From a virus, in the IMG/VR virus record IMGVR_UViG_3300041405_000170, positions 1 to 20,234 of that record: DNA of 20,234 nt; one strand, written 5' to 3'. Every line of letters begins with the position of its first letter. The first letter of the stretch is position 1. Made by a program: the position numbers and the translations under genes. Shown here one piece after another: positions 3,996 through 18,053 of this stretch. Under the pieces are notes generated by a model. The model worked only from the letters and a program-made list of their open reading frames with translations, was not told where the DNA came from and did not search any database.

Positions 3996-4491
3996 CATCA
4001 ACGTTAAAGGGTTGAAGGAACTCCAGCGAACGCTTGAGGCACTCCCCGCCCGAATCGGCGAGAAGGTTGTCCGCGCCGGACTACGCGCAGCCGGGCAAGT
4101 TATCCGCAAGGATGCTCAGTCTCGGGTGCCAATCCTCAAGGCGCCGAGCAAGTACCGGAAGCCCGGCACGGTAAAGCGGGCCATCGTTATCAAGCGTTCG
4201 CGCCGGGATAAATTCGGGGTTTACGTTACGGTGCGCGGGTTGAAGGCGAAGCAGATCAAAGCGTTCAAAGGTGGCAAGGTTAACAAGGCAGCGGCTCAAA
4301 ATCCCGATGACCCGTTTTACTGGTTGTTCCTCGAATTCGGTACGGCGAAGCTCACGAAAACCCCGTTCCTGCGGCCGGCGTTCGAGTCGAAGAAATTCGA
4401 GGCGCTCCGCAAGTTTGAAGAGTACTGCAAGAAGCGGGTTGTGAAGGAAGCGGAGAAGCTAGCGCGGGAACTCGGGAGCGTTGCGGCATGA
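3985..4491 (+). CDS. HK97 gp10-like tail/neck protein
   Basis: A 168-residue, strongly basic protein of the HK97 gp10 family (PF04883), acting at the head-tail junction or in tail completion. The signature is the N-terminal SINVKGLKELQRTLEALPARIGEKVVRAGLRAAGQVIRKDA pattern, here rich in Lys and Arg. It is followed by a beta segment with VIKRSRRDKFGVYVTV, the aromatic turn DDPFYWLFLEFGTAKLTKTPFLRPAF and a basic C-terminal helix. LEFGT..... PFLRPAF is the conserved core of the family. The start lies inside the end of the adaptor gene, and the stop overlaps the next start by four bases. Confidence 0.9.
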   Translation: MVDSINVKGLKELQRTLEALPARIGEKVVRAGLRAAGQVIRKDAQSRVPILKAPSKYRKPGTVKRAIVIKRSRRDKFGVYVTVRGLKAKQIKAFKGGKVNKAAAQNPDDPFYWLFLEFGTAKLTKTPFLRPAFESKKFEALRKFEEYCKKRVVKEAEKLARELGSVAA

Positions 4492-4856
4492 TCGAATCAG
4501 ACGTACAGACGGTACTTCTTGCGGCCCCTGCCGTCACTGCCTTGGTAGGCACTCGGGTTGCTGCGGGAATGCTCCCCGAGGGAGAGCTGCGCCCGTATGT
4601 GACTTACTCGTTAATCACCGGGGAGCGTATCCCCTCGATGACGGATTCGGGCTTGATGCGCCATGCGCGAATCCAGCTCGATTGCTGGTCGCCGAACTAC
4701 AAACAATCGAAGCAAATCGCGCTCGCCGTCGAAACTGCAATCGAGGCTAGCGCGCTATTCGAGGTTGTGTTCATCGGGGACCAAGACCTATACGACAACG
4801 AGACAAAACTGCACCGCGTTGTCGTCGACTATTCGGTCTGGCAGGTGACGGCGTAG
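4488..4856 (+). CDS. Tail completion protein, DUF3168 (gp17-like)
   Basis: A 122-residue protein of the DUF3168 family (PF11367), whose SPP1 gp17 relatives join the tail to the head. Visible landmarks are LLAAPAVTALVGTRV near the N-terminus, RPYVTYSLITGERIPSMTDS, ARIQLDCWSPNYKQSKQIALAVETAI and the final strand LHRVVVDYSVWQVTA. It is the last gene of the head and neck block. Its TAG stop directly abuts the stop of the antisense DUF4262 gene, with no intergenic space and no terminator. Two oppositely transcribed units therefore collide here. Confidence 0.88.
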   Translation: MIESDVQTVLLAAPAVTALVGTRVAAGMLPEGELRPYVTYSLITGERIPSMTDSGLMRHARIQLDCWSPNYKQSKQIALAVETAIEASALFEVVFIGDQDLYDNETKLHRVVVDYSVWQVTA

Positions 4857-5300
4857 CTAGTTCAACTCGACCCACAAATGCCGCTGGCACTTCATATATT
4901 CGGCGTCATACCCGTCCTGCCATGGAAGCATTCCGTTCTGGTCGGCGATAACGATTTGCAGGAACGTCGGGGCTATCCCTCGCTCCTCGTAATAGAACAC
5001 CGTCTGACAGCAGAATTCTCGGGCGACCGATTCTGGCAAGTAACGGAACGCTAGCGGGAGGTTTCCGAGTGACTCGTCGACTTGCCCGGCGACGAACTTT
5101 TCCCCGGCCTTGATCCTGTCGTAAATATCACGGAGAAGGCCGTGACAGTCCTTGGGGTGAAGGCCGCTGATAAAGACTTCGGGGTGTCCGAGTTCGGTCA
5201 ATCCAATGCTGTAGTAAAACGTTCCTGCGGGGTCGCCGACGCCGATAGCCGTAAAGCCGTATTGTTCGATATCGGCCGCGTATTTTGCGTGCAAGTTCAA
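4857..5300 (-). CDS. DUF4262 domain protein in antisense cassette
   Basis: A 147-residue protein of the DUF4262 type (PF14081), function unknown. The family pattern is seen in YGFTAIGVGDPAGTFYYSIGL (about residues 14-33), then LGHPEVFISGLHPKDCHGLL, a second domain half with RYLPESVAREFCCQTVFYYEE, and the diagnostic FLQIVIADQNGMLPWQDGYD (113-132). I choose a TTG start at 5300: it overlaps the stop of the upstream gene (ATTGA), AGGAG at 5313-5309 lies eight bases before it, and homology begins here. The longer in-frame extension to 5552 is only the shadow of the upstream gene. The protein has four cysteines and no signal peptide or membrane segment. Pairing with a methyltransferase-like gene hints at a joint function, which I cannot name. 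Confidence 0.8.
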   Translation of the reverse strand: MNLHAKYAADIEQYGFTAIGVGDPAGTFYYSIGLTELGHPEVFISGLHPKDCHGLLRDIYDRIKAGEKFVAGQVDESLGNLPLAFRYLPESVAREFCCQTVFYYEERGIAPTFLQIVIADQNGMLPWQDGYDAEYMKCQRHLWVELN

Positions 5301-5986
5301 TTGGTCCGCTCCTGATATTCGGGGTTGTCCCATACCACGATGGCGTTGCCCTGCGGCTTTTGCGACCGGGAGAAAAGCACGTCGCTTTCGTAAATCATGT
5401 ACGGCTTCGCGAGAAGTGGTTTCTGTTGGTGAACGTAGAAATTCCCCACAAAGATGTAGCGCTTGATCTTGCTCAGTAGTTCGATTTCGTCGACGCCGAA
5501 CATATTGCCGGCGCGCTCGGGTTCGTCCTCGTTGAACTTGTGAGTTACCCAAGCGGCGACGACGACCTCGGGCCGATAACGGTCGACAGCTTCCTGAGCG
5601 TCGAGGCGCTCGACGTGCTTACCGTAGGCAACGACCGGCTGGCCCATCTGCGTATATAGCGCCCGAACGTTCGGGTCATCTTGCATAAAGTTATCGGTGC
5701 AAGGGATGCCGAGCGCTCTCCCGAGTACGCCATTACCGCTGCCGATTTCGATAGCCGAACGGCTCGGGCTCGCTTCTAAGATTAGTTCGTTGATCCTGTC
5801 GAGCAGCTCCCGAGTCGGGAGGACATATAGGCCATGCCGGAGGGCGAAGCCCGAAAGGTCGACCTGATCGAACTGCTGGTAAAAGTTGCCGGGAACCACA
5901 CGCAGCTCCCCCTTATCGAGCGCGGTCGCATCTAGCGCGGCCTGCGCCTTGTTGCTAATCGAAATTATCGAAGCCTTCATCGTCAT
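5297..5986 (-). CDS. SAM-dependent methyltransferase-like protein in antisense cassette
   Basis: A 229-residue protein with a Rossmann methyltransferase motif I, AIEIGSGNGVLGRAL (about residues 78-92), preceded by a helix LPTRELLDRINELI typical of small SAM-dependent methyltransferases. A later strand, RPEVVVAAWVTHKF (138-151), occupies the motif IV position but lacks a DPP/NPPY-type catalytic motif, so it is not an obvious DNA adenine or cytosine-N4 methylase. The substrate is unknown. The ATG at 5986 is chosen because AGGGG at 6001-5997 lies ten bases upstream; the frame is open further upstream but the extension is low-complexity and unlike the rest. It is cotranscribed with the DUF4262 gene, which begins on its stop codon. 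Both genes run against the flanking virion genes. Confidence 0.75.
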   Translation of the reverse strand: MTMKASIISISNKAQAALDATALDKGELRVVPGNFYQQFDQVDLSGFALRHGLYVLPTRELLDRINELILEASPSRSAIEIGSGNGVLGRALGIPCTDNFMQDDPNVRALYTQMGQPVVAYGKHVERLDAQEAVDRYRPEVVVAAWVTHKFNEDEPERAGNMFGVDEIELLSKIKRYIFVGNFYVHQQKPLLAKPYMIYESDVLFSRSQKPQGNAIVVWDNPEYQERTN

Positions 5987-6039
5987 TAGGTTCTGTCCCC
6001 TGGGCAGATCGCCCACGGAACTCGGGGCGACGACCTCGA

Positions 6040-6061
6040 ATTGTATAACAAAAGTAATCAA
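6040..6061 (-). promoter_or_regulatory. Candidate promoter for the antisense cassette
   Basis: This is a short AT-rich island in GC-rich DNA. On the minus strand it reads TGTTATACAAT at 6050-6040, an extended -10-like element, about 54 bases before the methyltransferase-like start. A TTGATT at 6061-6056 is too close to act as its -35. TTGT-TAT-ACAA is also a small inverted repeat that could be an operator. Assignment is by eye only. Confidence 0.3.
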
Positions 6062-6132
6062 GCGGCGTACCGCCGACGAACTCCCCCGCAAGCCACACGA
6101 CCCCCCAACCCTATACGCTCGGAGTAATTCCC

Positions 6133-6792
6133 ATGACTTCCAAAAGCCGCGCCGTGTCCTCGCAGGGCACCCACTTCTATATCGAGAACGCCGCAGCAAC
6201 GCTCACGACTACCACGATCACCGGCATTTCCAAGGCGGCAAAAGCCGTGGTGACTTTCGCGTCGCATACCTTTGTGAAAGGCGATGTATTGCGATTCGCC
6301 GCCGTAGTCGGGATGACCGAAATTAACGGCCTTGAGGGCATCGTCGAAACGACGACCGCCACAACCGTCGTCCTCGCGAATATTAACTCGACGAGCTTCA
6401 CAACTTACGGCAGCGCCGGTACTGCCGCGCTGCTTCAGTTCTTCGAAACCTGCCAGCACAAGTCGTATTCCGGTTTCGACGGACAGGCGAGCGAGATCGA
6501 TACCACGACTCTCTGCTCGACCGCTAAGGAAAAATCCCTCGGCCTGCAAGACTTCGGCGGTATGTCGGCAGACCTTCACTACGTCGAAGACGACGCATTC
6601 CAAATCGAGGCAAAGGTCGCCAAGCGCGAAGCGTTGCCGCGTTGGTTCAAGCTCGTCAAACAAAACGGCTACATCAAAATCTTTGAAGGCTACGTGCGCT
6701 CGCTGAGCGACTCGGGCGCGGTCGACGGGACCAACGCCGGTACGTTGGCGGTTACGATCACGGGCGAAGTTTACGAGGTGGCCAGTGCTTAA
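6133..6792 (+). CDS. Major tail tube protein with E1-FCCH-like insert domain
   Basis: A 219-residue protein that stacks as rings to form the tail tube. It opens with SRAVSSQGTHFYIEN, carries KSYSGFDGQASEIDTTTLCSTAKEKSLGLQDFGGMS, a frequent motif of lambda gpV / TP901-1-type tube proteins, and ends with beta segments LAVTITGEVYEVASA. Residues about 28-95 (ISKAAKAVVTFASHTFVKGD through TSFTTYGSAG) form a separate beta domain resembling the ubiquitin-activating E1 FCCH domain seen as an add-on in phage tail proteins. It probably decorates the tube. The ribosome-binding site GGAG (6121-6124) lies eight bases before the ATG. The gene is the first of the tail block after the antisense cassette. Confidence 0.87.
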   Translation: MTSKSRAVSSQGTHFYIENAAATLTTTTITGISKAAKAVVTFASHTFVKGDVLRFAAVVGMTEINGLEGIVETTTATTVVLANINSTSFTTYGSAGTAALLQFFETCQHKSYSGFDGQASEIDTTTLCSTAKEKSLGLQDFGGMSADLHYVEDDAFQIEAKVAKREALPRWFKLVKQNGYIKIFEGYVRSLSDSGAVDGTNAGTLAVTITGEVYEVASA

Positions 6793-11133: not shown

Positions 11134-12821
11134 TGACCGTCTATACCACTAGCTTCGGCGAGTATACGACCGGCGCGGCGCCTAGCGATTGGACGGCGCG
11201 CTGGACTACAACCGGCGAAACGTGGGCGGTTCGTGCCGATGCGGCGACAACAGCGGGCAAGTATCTAGAGCATACGCGGACGACGACGGCAAAACGCCTG
11301 CTATCTTGGGATGATATCGACGGCGATTCTGGTCGCGATAACGGTGAAATATTCGTTCGCTATCGCAGCACTTCCGCGACCTCTGCGGACCAGTTTTATT
11401 TGGTCTTGCGCGGCTCGGGTAGCGCCGGCTCTGAAACTGCATACCTGTTTTACAACACTTCGGGCACCAATGTTCGAATCGCTAAAATGTCTAGCGGCAC
11501 GATAACCGAGATTGCCAACTTTACCTTCACGCTCATTAATAATACTTGGCTCGGCCTACGTTTTCGGGCAAACGGTACGGCACTAAAAGCTAAGATATGG
11601 AACAGCCAACTCGACGCCGAACCGGCCGCGTGGAGCATTGAAACGACCGATGCGACGATTACTGGAACCGGCTGGATTGGTGTCGGTAACTTTGCCACCA
11701 CCGGGACGCGCAGTTTTGACGATGTAGCGATAGGGACTAGCGGCGATACCGCTGCGTTCCCGCCGTCGGCCGAAGTTCGGGAAACACAAGACGTTATGTT
11801 GGCGCTTGGGGTTGGCTCTCCAACAACGCGGGCGACACAACTCGCTGCGCTAGTGATAGGAGGTGTTTCGCCCGTCATTCGTGAAACTCAATTCGCCGCG
11901 CTTCCGTTGGTTGAGTTCCACGCCGATACGCCGATTACACAAATGACCGCGCTCGTACTTGCCGACCTCGTACCTTGTACAACGCGATGGGCGCAGACGT
12001 GGACGATTACCCGAACTGACGGGCAGGTCTTCGCGTTTACCTCGCTTGACCGGCCGCTGACTTTCCGTGGGGTTGTTCATACCCCGTGCAATTCCTTGAC
12101 CGCTACGGCTACCGAGCAATCGACGACTATCGGCGCTAGCGGGAACATGGAGTTACTCGGGATTATTTCCGACGTAGGTATCAGCGAGCAGGAACTCTAC
12201 AACGGTCTATTCGACTTCGCCCGTTTTGAAATTTGGATGGTGCCCTGGAATAACTCGGGCGGCGAGACGCCGTTCCGGTTGATGGCCGGGACCACCGGGA
12301 CCATGAGCCACGGTATCGACGGGTTCAAATTCGAGGTATTGACCGGCTCCGCTAACCTGCGTCAGAAGGCGCTTCTCGAAGTCTTCTCGGCATCATGCCG
12401 TTACGGGTTCGGCTCGACGCTCGACGCTCGCTGCCCGGTCAATCTGGCGGCGATTACCGTCGCTGGGGCGGCGACTTCTACAGCAGTGCCGGCGGCGAGT
12501 AACGCGTCGACGCGACGTATCGTTATCGATAGTTCGCGAGCCGAAGCGGCTGGTCATTTTGATCTGGGAGTTATCACGTTTACCGGGGGAGCCAACGCCG
12601 GGGCGAAGTCGGAGATTAAACGTTTTGAGGGTGGCGTTTTTGTTCTCTGGTCGCCGCTGCTTTTCCCTATCGAAATTGGCGACACCTATACCGCGACGCC
12701 CGGCTGCAACAAATCGCCGGCCGACCATATGCGCTTCAACGCAGACATGGTTGATTACGGGGGTTTCCCCGACGTGCCCGGCTCCGATTCCATTAACCAA
12801 TTCCCAGACGCCAAGGGGTAA
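11133..12821 (+). CDS. Lectin-like domain fused to DUF2163 / BR0599-type tail hub protein
   Basis: A 562-residue fusion. Residues 1 to ~205 are a LamG-like jelly roll (GKYLEHTRTTTAKRLLSWDD, DNGEIFVRYRSTS, NTWLGLRFRANGTALKAKIW, RSFDDVAIG). Residues ~213-268 are a linker with repeated R-x-T-Q-x-A-A-L-like units. Residues ~270-562 are the core tail hub: DUF2163 (PF09931) from CTTRWAQTWTITRTDGQVF through LDRPLTFRGVVHTP and ISEQELYNGLFDFARFEIW, then a BR0599-like C-terminus (PF09356) with CRYGFGSTLDARCPVNL and MVDYGGFPDVPGSDSI. Usual stand-alone DUF2163 proteins are about 290 residues, so the N-terminal half is an addition. It sits between the lectin-like gene and the NlpC/P60 peptidase, in the gene-transfer-agent order. 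Confidence 0.82.
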   Translation: MTVYTTSFGEYTTGAAPSDWTARWTTTGETWAVRADAATTAGKYLEHTRTTTAKRLLSWDDIDGDSGRDNGEIFVRYRSTSATSADQFYLVLRGSGSAGSETAYLFYNTSGTNVRIAKMSSGTITEIANFTFTLINNTWLGLRFRANGTALKAKIWNSQLDAEPAAWSIETTDATITGTGWIGVGNFATTGTRSFDDVAIGTSGDTAAFPPSAEVRETQDVMLALGVGSPTTRATQLAALVIGGVSPVIRETQFAALPLVEFHADTPITQMTALVLADLVPCTTRWAQTWTITRTDGQVFAFTSLDRPLTFRGVVHTPCNSLTATATEQSTTIGASGNMELLGIISDVGISEQELYNGLFDFARFEIWMVPWNNSGGETPFRLMAGTTGTMSHGIDGFKFEVLTGSANLRQKALLEVFSASCRYGFGSTLDARCPVNLAAITVAGAATSTAVPAASNASTRRIVIDSSRAEAAGHFDLGVITFTGGANAGAKSEIKRFEGGVFVLWSPLLFPIEIGDTYTATPGCNKSPADHMRFNADMVDYGGFPDVPGSDSINQFPDAKG

Positions 12822-16612: not shown

Positions 16613-17065
16613 TTACGGGTTTTTCGGCGGGGCATCAATCTCGCTGATTTTCCAAGACCGAACCACGTCCTTCCCATACTGCGCGTTCCACGCGTTGAAC
16701 TTGCCGTCGCGATTGCCGCGCACGACTAGCTCTTCGCCGGTTTCAGGGTTTTTGAACGTCCTGATTTTGACGCCGTTAAATACACGGGTTCGCTTGTCGG
16801 TCGGCTTGCTGGCCGACTTCGTGGCCGACGTCGCAGGCTTCTTGTGGTGCGACTTCTTGGCCGGTGACTTGTCCCCTTCAAACTCGATAGAGAGCAATTC
16901 GAAGAGGGCCGACCGCGATAGCTTGTGTCCAGCGAGGAAATCGTCGAGCGCCTTCTCGAACGCGATAGCCTTCTGAACTTCCGGGGACTGCTTCATTTCC
17001 TGAAAGGCGCGGACCCTGATCGCGAGTTCGCGTTCTGCGCGTTTAAATTCGGCTAATGTGGACAT
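16613..17065 (-). CDS. MvaT/MvaU-like H-NS family nucleoid protein
   Basis: A 150-residue xenogeneic-silencer-type protein. Residues 1-50 are a charged helical dimerisation region (LAEFKRAERELAIRVRAFQEM, then VQKAIAFEKALDDFL), like the MvaT N-terminus. Residues 65-92 are a Lys/Ser-rich linker. Residues ~93-140 match the MvaT DNA-binding domain: FNGVKIRTFKNPETGEELVV, then GNRDGKFNAWNAQYG and VVRSWKI, parallel to the MvaT pattern NPHTGE...KGGN...AW...YG...ESW. MvaT proteins bind AT-rich DNA and silence it in Pseudomonas. A phage copy may repress its own or host genes, or form mixed oligomers with host MvaT. GGAAG lies eight bases before the ATG. It follows the 73-residue gene after 26 bases, likely one operon. 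Confidence 0.85.
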   Translation of the reverse strand: MSTLAEFKRAERELAIRVRAFQEMKQSPEVQKAIAFEKALDDFLAGHKLSRSALFELLSIEFEGDKSPAKKSHHKKPATSATKSASKPTDKRTRVFNGVKIRTFKNPETGEELVVRGNRDGKFNAWNAQYGKDVVRSWKISEIDAPPKNP

Positions 17066-17378: not shown

Positions 17379-18053
17379 CTACGCCGCTCCCACAGTCACT
17401 TCTATTTCTTTTGACTCGACGCTAATCAACTTGAGAACCTTTAGCCCATAGCTACGGGCTTTTTTGCCGGCTTCGATTTCCGCCTCAACGGCGGTCATGT
17501 TGTATTCAACGTGGATGAACGGAACTTCAAACCAGTCGTGGTCGCGAACGAGCAGGATGACTTCCAACTCGCGTTTGATAAAAGTCCGTGGCGCTGCTTG
17601 CTTGCGTATAGGCGTGGCGGGTTTCGGCGGAGTAGGCACGCCAAGGTTGGCGCGTATTTGCTTTTCAAGCTTCGCCTGCCGCATAGCGGTTTCGCTTGCC
17701 TGCTCAATACCGGGAGGCGGTGGGGTTTTCGAGATAGTCGGGACAAACTCAAACGAGGCTAATACCTCGGGCTTGTTTTTTATAACCGGCTTATCGATTC
17801 CGAGCGCGTCGCGCATTTGATCCTCAAGACTTTGCAAGTCGGAGGACTTCGGGGCGGGGGTAAAATCAAAATGGAAATCGTCGGCGGTTAACTTTGATAG
17901 TTCGCGGCGTTTGCGTTTTTCCGCTTTGCGTATTGCACGCAATTCCTGAGCAGTTGGCTCGGGCGGTGGCGGCTCCATTGCTGAGATCATATCTAACAGA
18001 CAATGCTCGCGCTGCGCAAACTTGGAGAATCCTAGTCCTGAGTTTAAAGCCAT
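17379..18053 (-). CDS. Unknown protein with Pro-rich linkers and a duplicated short motif
   Basis: A 224-residue protein I do not recognise. Residues 25-57 are Pro/Glu-rich then strongly basic (IRKAEKRKRRELSK). Residues 75-86 (SLEDQMRDALGI) and 128-139 (KLEKQIRANLGV) are two copies of one motif, LE-x-Q-x-R-x2-LG, in segments separated by proline-rich linkers (TPPPPG, PTPPKPATP). A compact C-terminal part (~160-224) mixes strands (LEVILLVRDHDWFEVPFIHVEY) with a Lys-rich helix and ends in a beta strand. This suggests a flexible multi-site binding protein with a small folded end. AGGAG at 18064-18060 lies six bases before the ATG. It has its own terminator. The position beside attP is typical of accessory, lysogenic-conversion-type genes. 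Confidence 0.7.
   Translation of the reverse strand: MALNSGLGFSKFAQREHCLLDMISAMEPPPPEPTAQELRAIRKAEKRKRRELSKLTADDFHFDFTPAPKSSDLQSLEDQMRDALGIDKPVIKNKPEVLASFEFVPTISKTPPPPGIEQASETAMRQAKLEKQIRANLGVPTPPKPATPIRKQAAPRTFIKRELEVILLVRDHDWFEVPFIHVEYNMTAVEAEIEAGKKARSYGLKVLKLISVESKEIEVTVGAA

Follow-up and report, generated by a model that had tools for sequence, protein, structure and literature searches.

Exchangeable antisense cargo between phage tail terminator and tail tube genes, with a putative promoter overlapping a repressor-operator-like dyad

The site between the tail terminator and tail tube genes of the phage analyzed here, and of its relatives among viral contigs, is a fixed slot with exchanged antisense cargo, and a methyltransferase-like (MT) gene followed by a DUF4262 gene is one of its loadings. 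The explanation we favor, with moderate confidence, is an antisense cargo slot of independent, exchangeable genes, whose putative promoter overlaps an operator-like dyad of a CI/S24-type repressor.

Results

We analyzed a 20,234-base viral record (the window), which contains a partial portal gene, protease, capsid, connector and tail genes, and an integrase. An initial annotation of this DNA had placed two coupled minus-strand genes between the tail completion and tail tube genes, and their coordinates and neighbors are borne out (Table 1); the genes overlap by 4 bases. The overlap joins the MT stop to the DUF4262 start (ATTGA), with AGGAG upstream, and the TTG start codon of DUF4262 in the window corresponds to ATG at the same codon in relatives. 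At the other end of the cargo, the stops of DUF4262 (4857) and gp17 (4856) abut, so that the two genes converge with zero gap, and we found no terminator-like site at the cargo 3' end. The annotation had also stated that siphoviruses normally run without a break at this site. This is the case in the four cultured relatives that we compared (Variovorax phage VarioGold, Bordetella phage PHB09, Halomonas phage H4907, and Burkholderia phage KS9), in all of which the insert is absent and the gap between the terminator and tail protein genes is only 55–107 bp. The interruption is thus real and lineage-specific. Full-length homologues of the MT and DUF4262 genes occupy the same place in other contigs, and dN/dS, calculated separately for MT, DUF4262, and a third cargo family termed GW (see below), is about 0.09–0.38. 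The gene pair is thus not a product of chance, and purifying selection on the three families indicates that these genes are maintained.

Table 1. Positions of the cargo genes, their borders, and the leader elements in the window
Feature	Position	Strand	Description
gp17 tail terminator/completion gene	4488–4856	+	left border of the slot; PF11367, E = 3.8e-21; phrog_78
DUF4262 protein	4857–5300	−	147 aa, TTG start; PF14081, E = 2.8e-25; phrog_17488
MT (class I SAM-methyltransferase-like)	5297–5986	−	229 aa; ATG at 5986, alternative ATG at 5980
Leader	5987–6132	−	from first cargo gene to tail tube gene; kept across phages with different cargo (13 leaders aligned)
Putative extended −10 for the cargo	6042–6050	−	TG-T-TATACA (TGTTATACA); overlaps the dyad; from the 13-leader alignment
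Operator-like dyad	6042–6061		TGTATAACAAAAGTAATCAA on the plus strand; resembles dyads flanking the CI/S24 repressor gene in four complete relatives
Major tail (tail tube) gene	6133–6792	+	right border of the slot; phrog_584, E = 1.2e-20

A gp17 search of viral contigs returned 14 loci, and further loci were located with an MT profile. Every related contig spanning the site carries an antisense insert (0.84–1.3 kb), the content of which differs. Besides MT and DUF4262, the inserts encode GW (our label; 116–122 aa, with the motif DEEPQGWFKDP...RPDGDASRETIGYPPP and no Pfam family match), present in L015–L019, L022, L024, and L035, and a GNAT-like protein, assigned from a match below the Pfam cut-off. 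The loadings are MT-DUF4262 (window, L014, and L026), MT-GW-DUF4262 (L017 with L004, one contig), GW-DUF4262 (L015, L016, and L018), MT-GW (L022 and L035), MT alone (L020, L021, and L023), and GW with the GNAT-like protein (fused in L019, separate in L024). Counted from the putative promoter, MT always precedes GW, and DUF4262 or GNAT-like, where present, comes last. The window clusters with L014 and L015 in a tree of gp17 and gp10. L015, its neighbor by core genes, carries GW but lacks MT, and the DUF4262 proteins of L015 and the window share only 58% identity, compared with 93% for gp17. Since the two phages are close in the core gene tree yet differ this much in DUF4262, we conclude that DUF4262 alleles have been exchanged. 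The cargo genes are accessory: mosaic in related contigs and absent from the four cultured relatives.

We next asked how the families are combined. In a tally of one row per contig, four contigs have both MT and DUF4262, five have MT only, three DUF4262 only, and two neither, and no association between the families is found. MT lacks DUF4262 at the site in L020, L021, L022, L023, and L035, and DUF4262 lacks MT in L015, L016, and L018, so co-occurrence at the slot is not obligate. The annotation had suggested a two-protein device and a search for conserved co-occurrence. The families do co-occur, but their pairing is just one among several combinations of a single slot, and the adjacent pair was not found elsewhere; because co-occurrence is limited in this way, the outcome comes close to the lack of co-occurrence elsewhere that the annotation itself had named as speaking against its proposal. 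Its picture of moron-like antisense DNA in the virion operon and of a methyltransferase-like fold stands, and the device does not.

None of the four cargo families matches a PADLOC defense model (0/4), and we rejected a known anti-phage defense system as the identity of the cargo. Our search located no MT in cultured phages, and DUF4262 has only distant matches there, in Pseudomonas and Xanthomonas phages. GW is matched distantly in Pseudomonas and Caulobacter phages, and in three Pseudomonas phages it lies about 0.5–0.7 kb from DUF4262. In an unrelated phage contig without a match to any of the window's virion genes, MT clusters on one strand with a GNAT-like gene and a weak match to GW, all within about 2.3 kb (L043:4366–6597). 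This cluster suggests that the families are transferred together, if only loosely.

The MT protein contains the SAM motif noted in the initial annotation, IEIGSGNG, and no recognizable catalytic motif of a DNA methyltransferase, again in line with that annotation. In an alignment of 28 homologues, Glu-80, Gly-82, Gly-84, and Gly-86 in IEIGSGNG (motif I), the acidic Asp-98 after β2, and Trp-146 and Thr-148 after β4 are invariant; Tyr-177, Gly-181, and His-186 are kept as well, with a GN..H signature following β5. A motif I of the form E/DxGxGxG and an acidic residue after β2 are features of class I SAM methyltransferases. The AlphaFold2 model of MT (pLDDT 95.1, pTM 0.91) has a Rossmann-like methyltransferase fold, and a Foldseek search of the PDB returned mainly methyltransferases (HemK/PrmC, TrmK, KsgA/DIMT1, METTL16, and others). 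The best of these matches have probabilities near 1, yet their TM-scores to the solved structures are only 0.26–0.41; among viral models, the matches include giant-virus methyltransferases with TM-scores of up to 0.5–0.6. MT thus resembles class I enzymes in motif I, the acidic residue, and the predicted fold, and differs from them in its low TM-scores and at the position of motif IV, where the amino-methyltransferase signature (D/N/S)PP(Y/F) is missing and AAWVTHK follows β4 instead. By these models a class I methyltransferase-like fold is well supported, and MT probably binds SAM. We rejected a known DNA methyltransferase as its identity, given the missing motif IV and the lack of a family match.

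MT has no family match in Pfam, PHROG, NCBIfam, or PADLOC, and a search of PDB sequences with the MT profile returned sub-threshold matches only. Outside the slot, the family is found on 16 plasmids, in further viral contigs of 27–138 kb, and, in one scan, in the genomes of seven species, Burkholderiales among them. We did not find DUF4262 beside MT at these places (larger phages, plasmids, and some bacteria), and no conserved neighbor is convincing apart from shadow ORFs and, in 4 loci, a small XRE-like gene. Distant chromosomal relatives of ∼320 aa occur in Burkholderiales and in one genome of the wider class (L080–L097; E about 1e-6 to 1e-15). They have CSWPPxxNxFE where MT has AAWVTHK, and their only Pfam similarity is a sub-threshold one to Methyltransf_23.

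The DUF4262 protein scores 89.4 bits against PF14081 (curated cut-off 28; profile positions 1–127 of 127) and is kept at the same site in relatives. Its structure model is too poor for use (pLDDT 45). In our literature search a single paper names the family, and no role is known for it. Elsewhere in the window, an MvaT/H-NS-like protein (16613–17065, minus strand; PF22055 C-terminal domain, E = 8e-7) is encoded beside a conserved gene without assigned function (17379–18053, minus strand). In the 72.5-kb contig behind L111, two MvaT-like stretches are grouped with a relative of the 17379–18053 gene, about 3–4 kb from a DUF4262 gene.

The cargo leader has a conserved core. TGTT.TA is invariant in 13/13 aligned leaders, whatever the cargo; these leaders share ancestry and are thus not independent. 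A standard σ70 promoter scan detected no consensus −35/−10 pair in the region, so the cargo's candidate promoter is a conserved extended −10-like element without such a pair. TGTTATANAAT occurs once in the window. When we ran a leader-derived pattern over five related records, its matches fell in the leaders, in the repressor region of three records, and at one other place. We read the immunity region of four relatives; in 4/4, a repressor gene encoding HTH_3 and Peptidase_S24 domains is flanked on each side by exact TAAC-N4-GTTA dyads. The window has no immunity region of its own, and its dyad was therefore matched to the operators of relatives.

We built a weight matrix solely from the eight immunity-region dyads of these four relatives; the motif had first been noticed in the leader, and its discovery was thus not blind. 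The leader site is the best match in the window, at 16.3, and the second-best site reaches 6.0. A score of 16.3 is attained anywhere in 12 of 1000 simulated 20-kb sequences (1.2%). Among sites outside the training set, the leader ranks first in the related genomes G677, G678, and G679 and second in G680, and it ranks first in every shorter contig tested. In leave-one-genome-out tests on contig pieces of the four relatives, its rank is 1 in 4/4. Most phages have an imperfect leader dyad, with about 16–20 bits compared with 26–29, and weaker still (7–12 bits) in L018, L019, L022, L024, and L035. A similar, weaker dyad covers the −10 of the cro-direction promoter in the immunity region. The overlap of the extended −10 with the dyad in the cargo leader suggests repression.

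Two further observations come from relatives. Divergent from the S24 repressor gene, L128 encodes a YdaS-family protein (12499–12756, minus strand; PF15943, E = 3e-20), which probably acts as a Cro-like regulator. L126 has an extra dyad of the repressor type (score 15.1) at position 4062 (about 23061 in G679), away from the immunity region and the cargo leader.

Discussion

Our preferred reading of the locus can be put as a sequence of steps. The slot would lie between the tail terminator and tail tube genes in a clade of temperate siphoviruses, and small independent genes would be swapped in a fixed order from the promoter; the MT/DUF4262 pair would be coupled in translation and not form an obligate device. 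Transcription of the cargo probably starts at the conserved minus-strand extended −10 that overlaps the operator-like dyad. In the simplest case the repressor would hold the cargo down in the lysogen, the cargo would open early after infection or on induction, and late plus-strand transcription would eventually run over it. MT, with SAM as its probable ligand, may act on some host or competing-phage molecule, and DUF4262 may act separately. The slot's control is probably tied to the lysogeny switch, in the simplest case by repression, with activation or control of the plus strand as other directions it may take.

We would extend this reading only tentatively, to a promoter that carries a copy of the immunity repressor operator, to a content that turns over while the link to lysogeny is kept, and to a new family with a methyltransferase fold that takes part in phage-host or phage-phage conflict. 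Content turnover with a retained lysogeny link would mean that any gene landing in the slot is timed by the phage repressor.

A rather unlikely alternative is a moron of the classical kind, expressed in the lysogen from its own promoter, where it protects or alters the host (exclusion or defense), and shut down on induction by interference from late plus-strand transcription. Tab is a gene of this layout, on the minus strand within a late operon and with a promoter of its own (PMC10884400); antisense interference of lysogenic and lytic transcripts with each other is documented in Staphylococcus aureus phages (PMC11087260); and the zero-gap convergent ends, with no terminator found between them, fit such interference. 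However, the promoter-like element overlaps a repressor-operator-like dyad, which predicts repressor control and hence repression in the lysogen, and no known defense family was matched. A probable link of the slot to the lysogeny switch argues against a moron freely expressed in the lysogen, and free-running lysogenic expression of the cargo is, for the same overlap, doubtful.

We also consider it unlikely that the dyad is unrelated to the repressor, being instead a site for a host regulator, a target of an MvaT-like silencer, or part of a plus-strand promoter of the tail genes, with the cargo expressed late or constitutively. The dyad is imperfect, there is no −35 box, the window has no immunity region, and a site between divergent genes could serve the plus strand. 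Against this, in most contigs tested no site outside the training set outscores the leader, and the site is conserved whatever the cargo.

That MT and DUF4262 act jointly as an obligate device (modifier plus effector, or toxin plus antitoxin) is very improbable and already largely refuted by the mosaic content: the genes overlap and are translationally coupled in the window, are adjacent in L026, and show a genome-level excess of DUF4262 with MT (2/7 MT-bearing compared with 8/300 Burkholderiales genomes, a weak excess that genome size could explain), but either family is found at the slot without its partner, purifying selection acts on each family, DUF4262 has been replaced by a divergent allele, and the two are unlinked in genomes holding both and about 4 kb apart on plasmid pASP-135.

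The closest known arrangement to the cargo slot, by analogy, is Tab of Pseudomonas phage JBD26, an 83-aa protein encoded on the minus strand between the terminase genes and expressed constitutively from the prophage by its own promoter (PMC10884400). Tab/anti-Tab and our slot have in common an accessory minus-strand gene with its own promoter, here putative, in a late operon; they differ in protein families, in site, in the exchangeable content of the slot, and in the repressor-operator-like dyad at its promoter. The antiviral hotspots of P2 and P4 phages are small loci, bordered by two conserved phage genes, in which gene turnover is high (Rousset et al. 2022, PMC9122126). The slot is likewise small, with high gene turnover and conserved phage genes on either side, but its 0.84–1.3-kb inserts lie antisense in a run of tail genes behind a promoter-like leader and match no known defense cargo. 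In S. aureus phages, noncontiguous operons (Tha/Ith) use antisense nesting as a life-cycle switch (PMC11087260). There too an antisense gene is nested in an operon, a layout that suits mutually exclusive expression, but in those phages an antisense inhibitor lies in the cI operon, whereas here antisense cargo lies in a late operon. Prophage cargo hotspots are known; this one lies antisense within the late operon, and its possible new feature is the repressor-operator-like control element.

Such hotspots are a proven source of new defense and counter-defense genes. The slot offers a searchable site between the tail terminator and tail tube genes, four cargo families, and a testable rule of timing. 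Its MT-like family has no match to a Pfam, PHROG, or NCBIfam model, although members occur on plasmids, in phages, and in several bacterial genomes. Were the dyad a functional operator, the slot would place accessory genes under the control of the lysogeny repressor inside the virion operon, unlike the constitutively expressed Tab.
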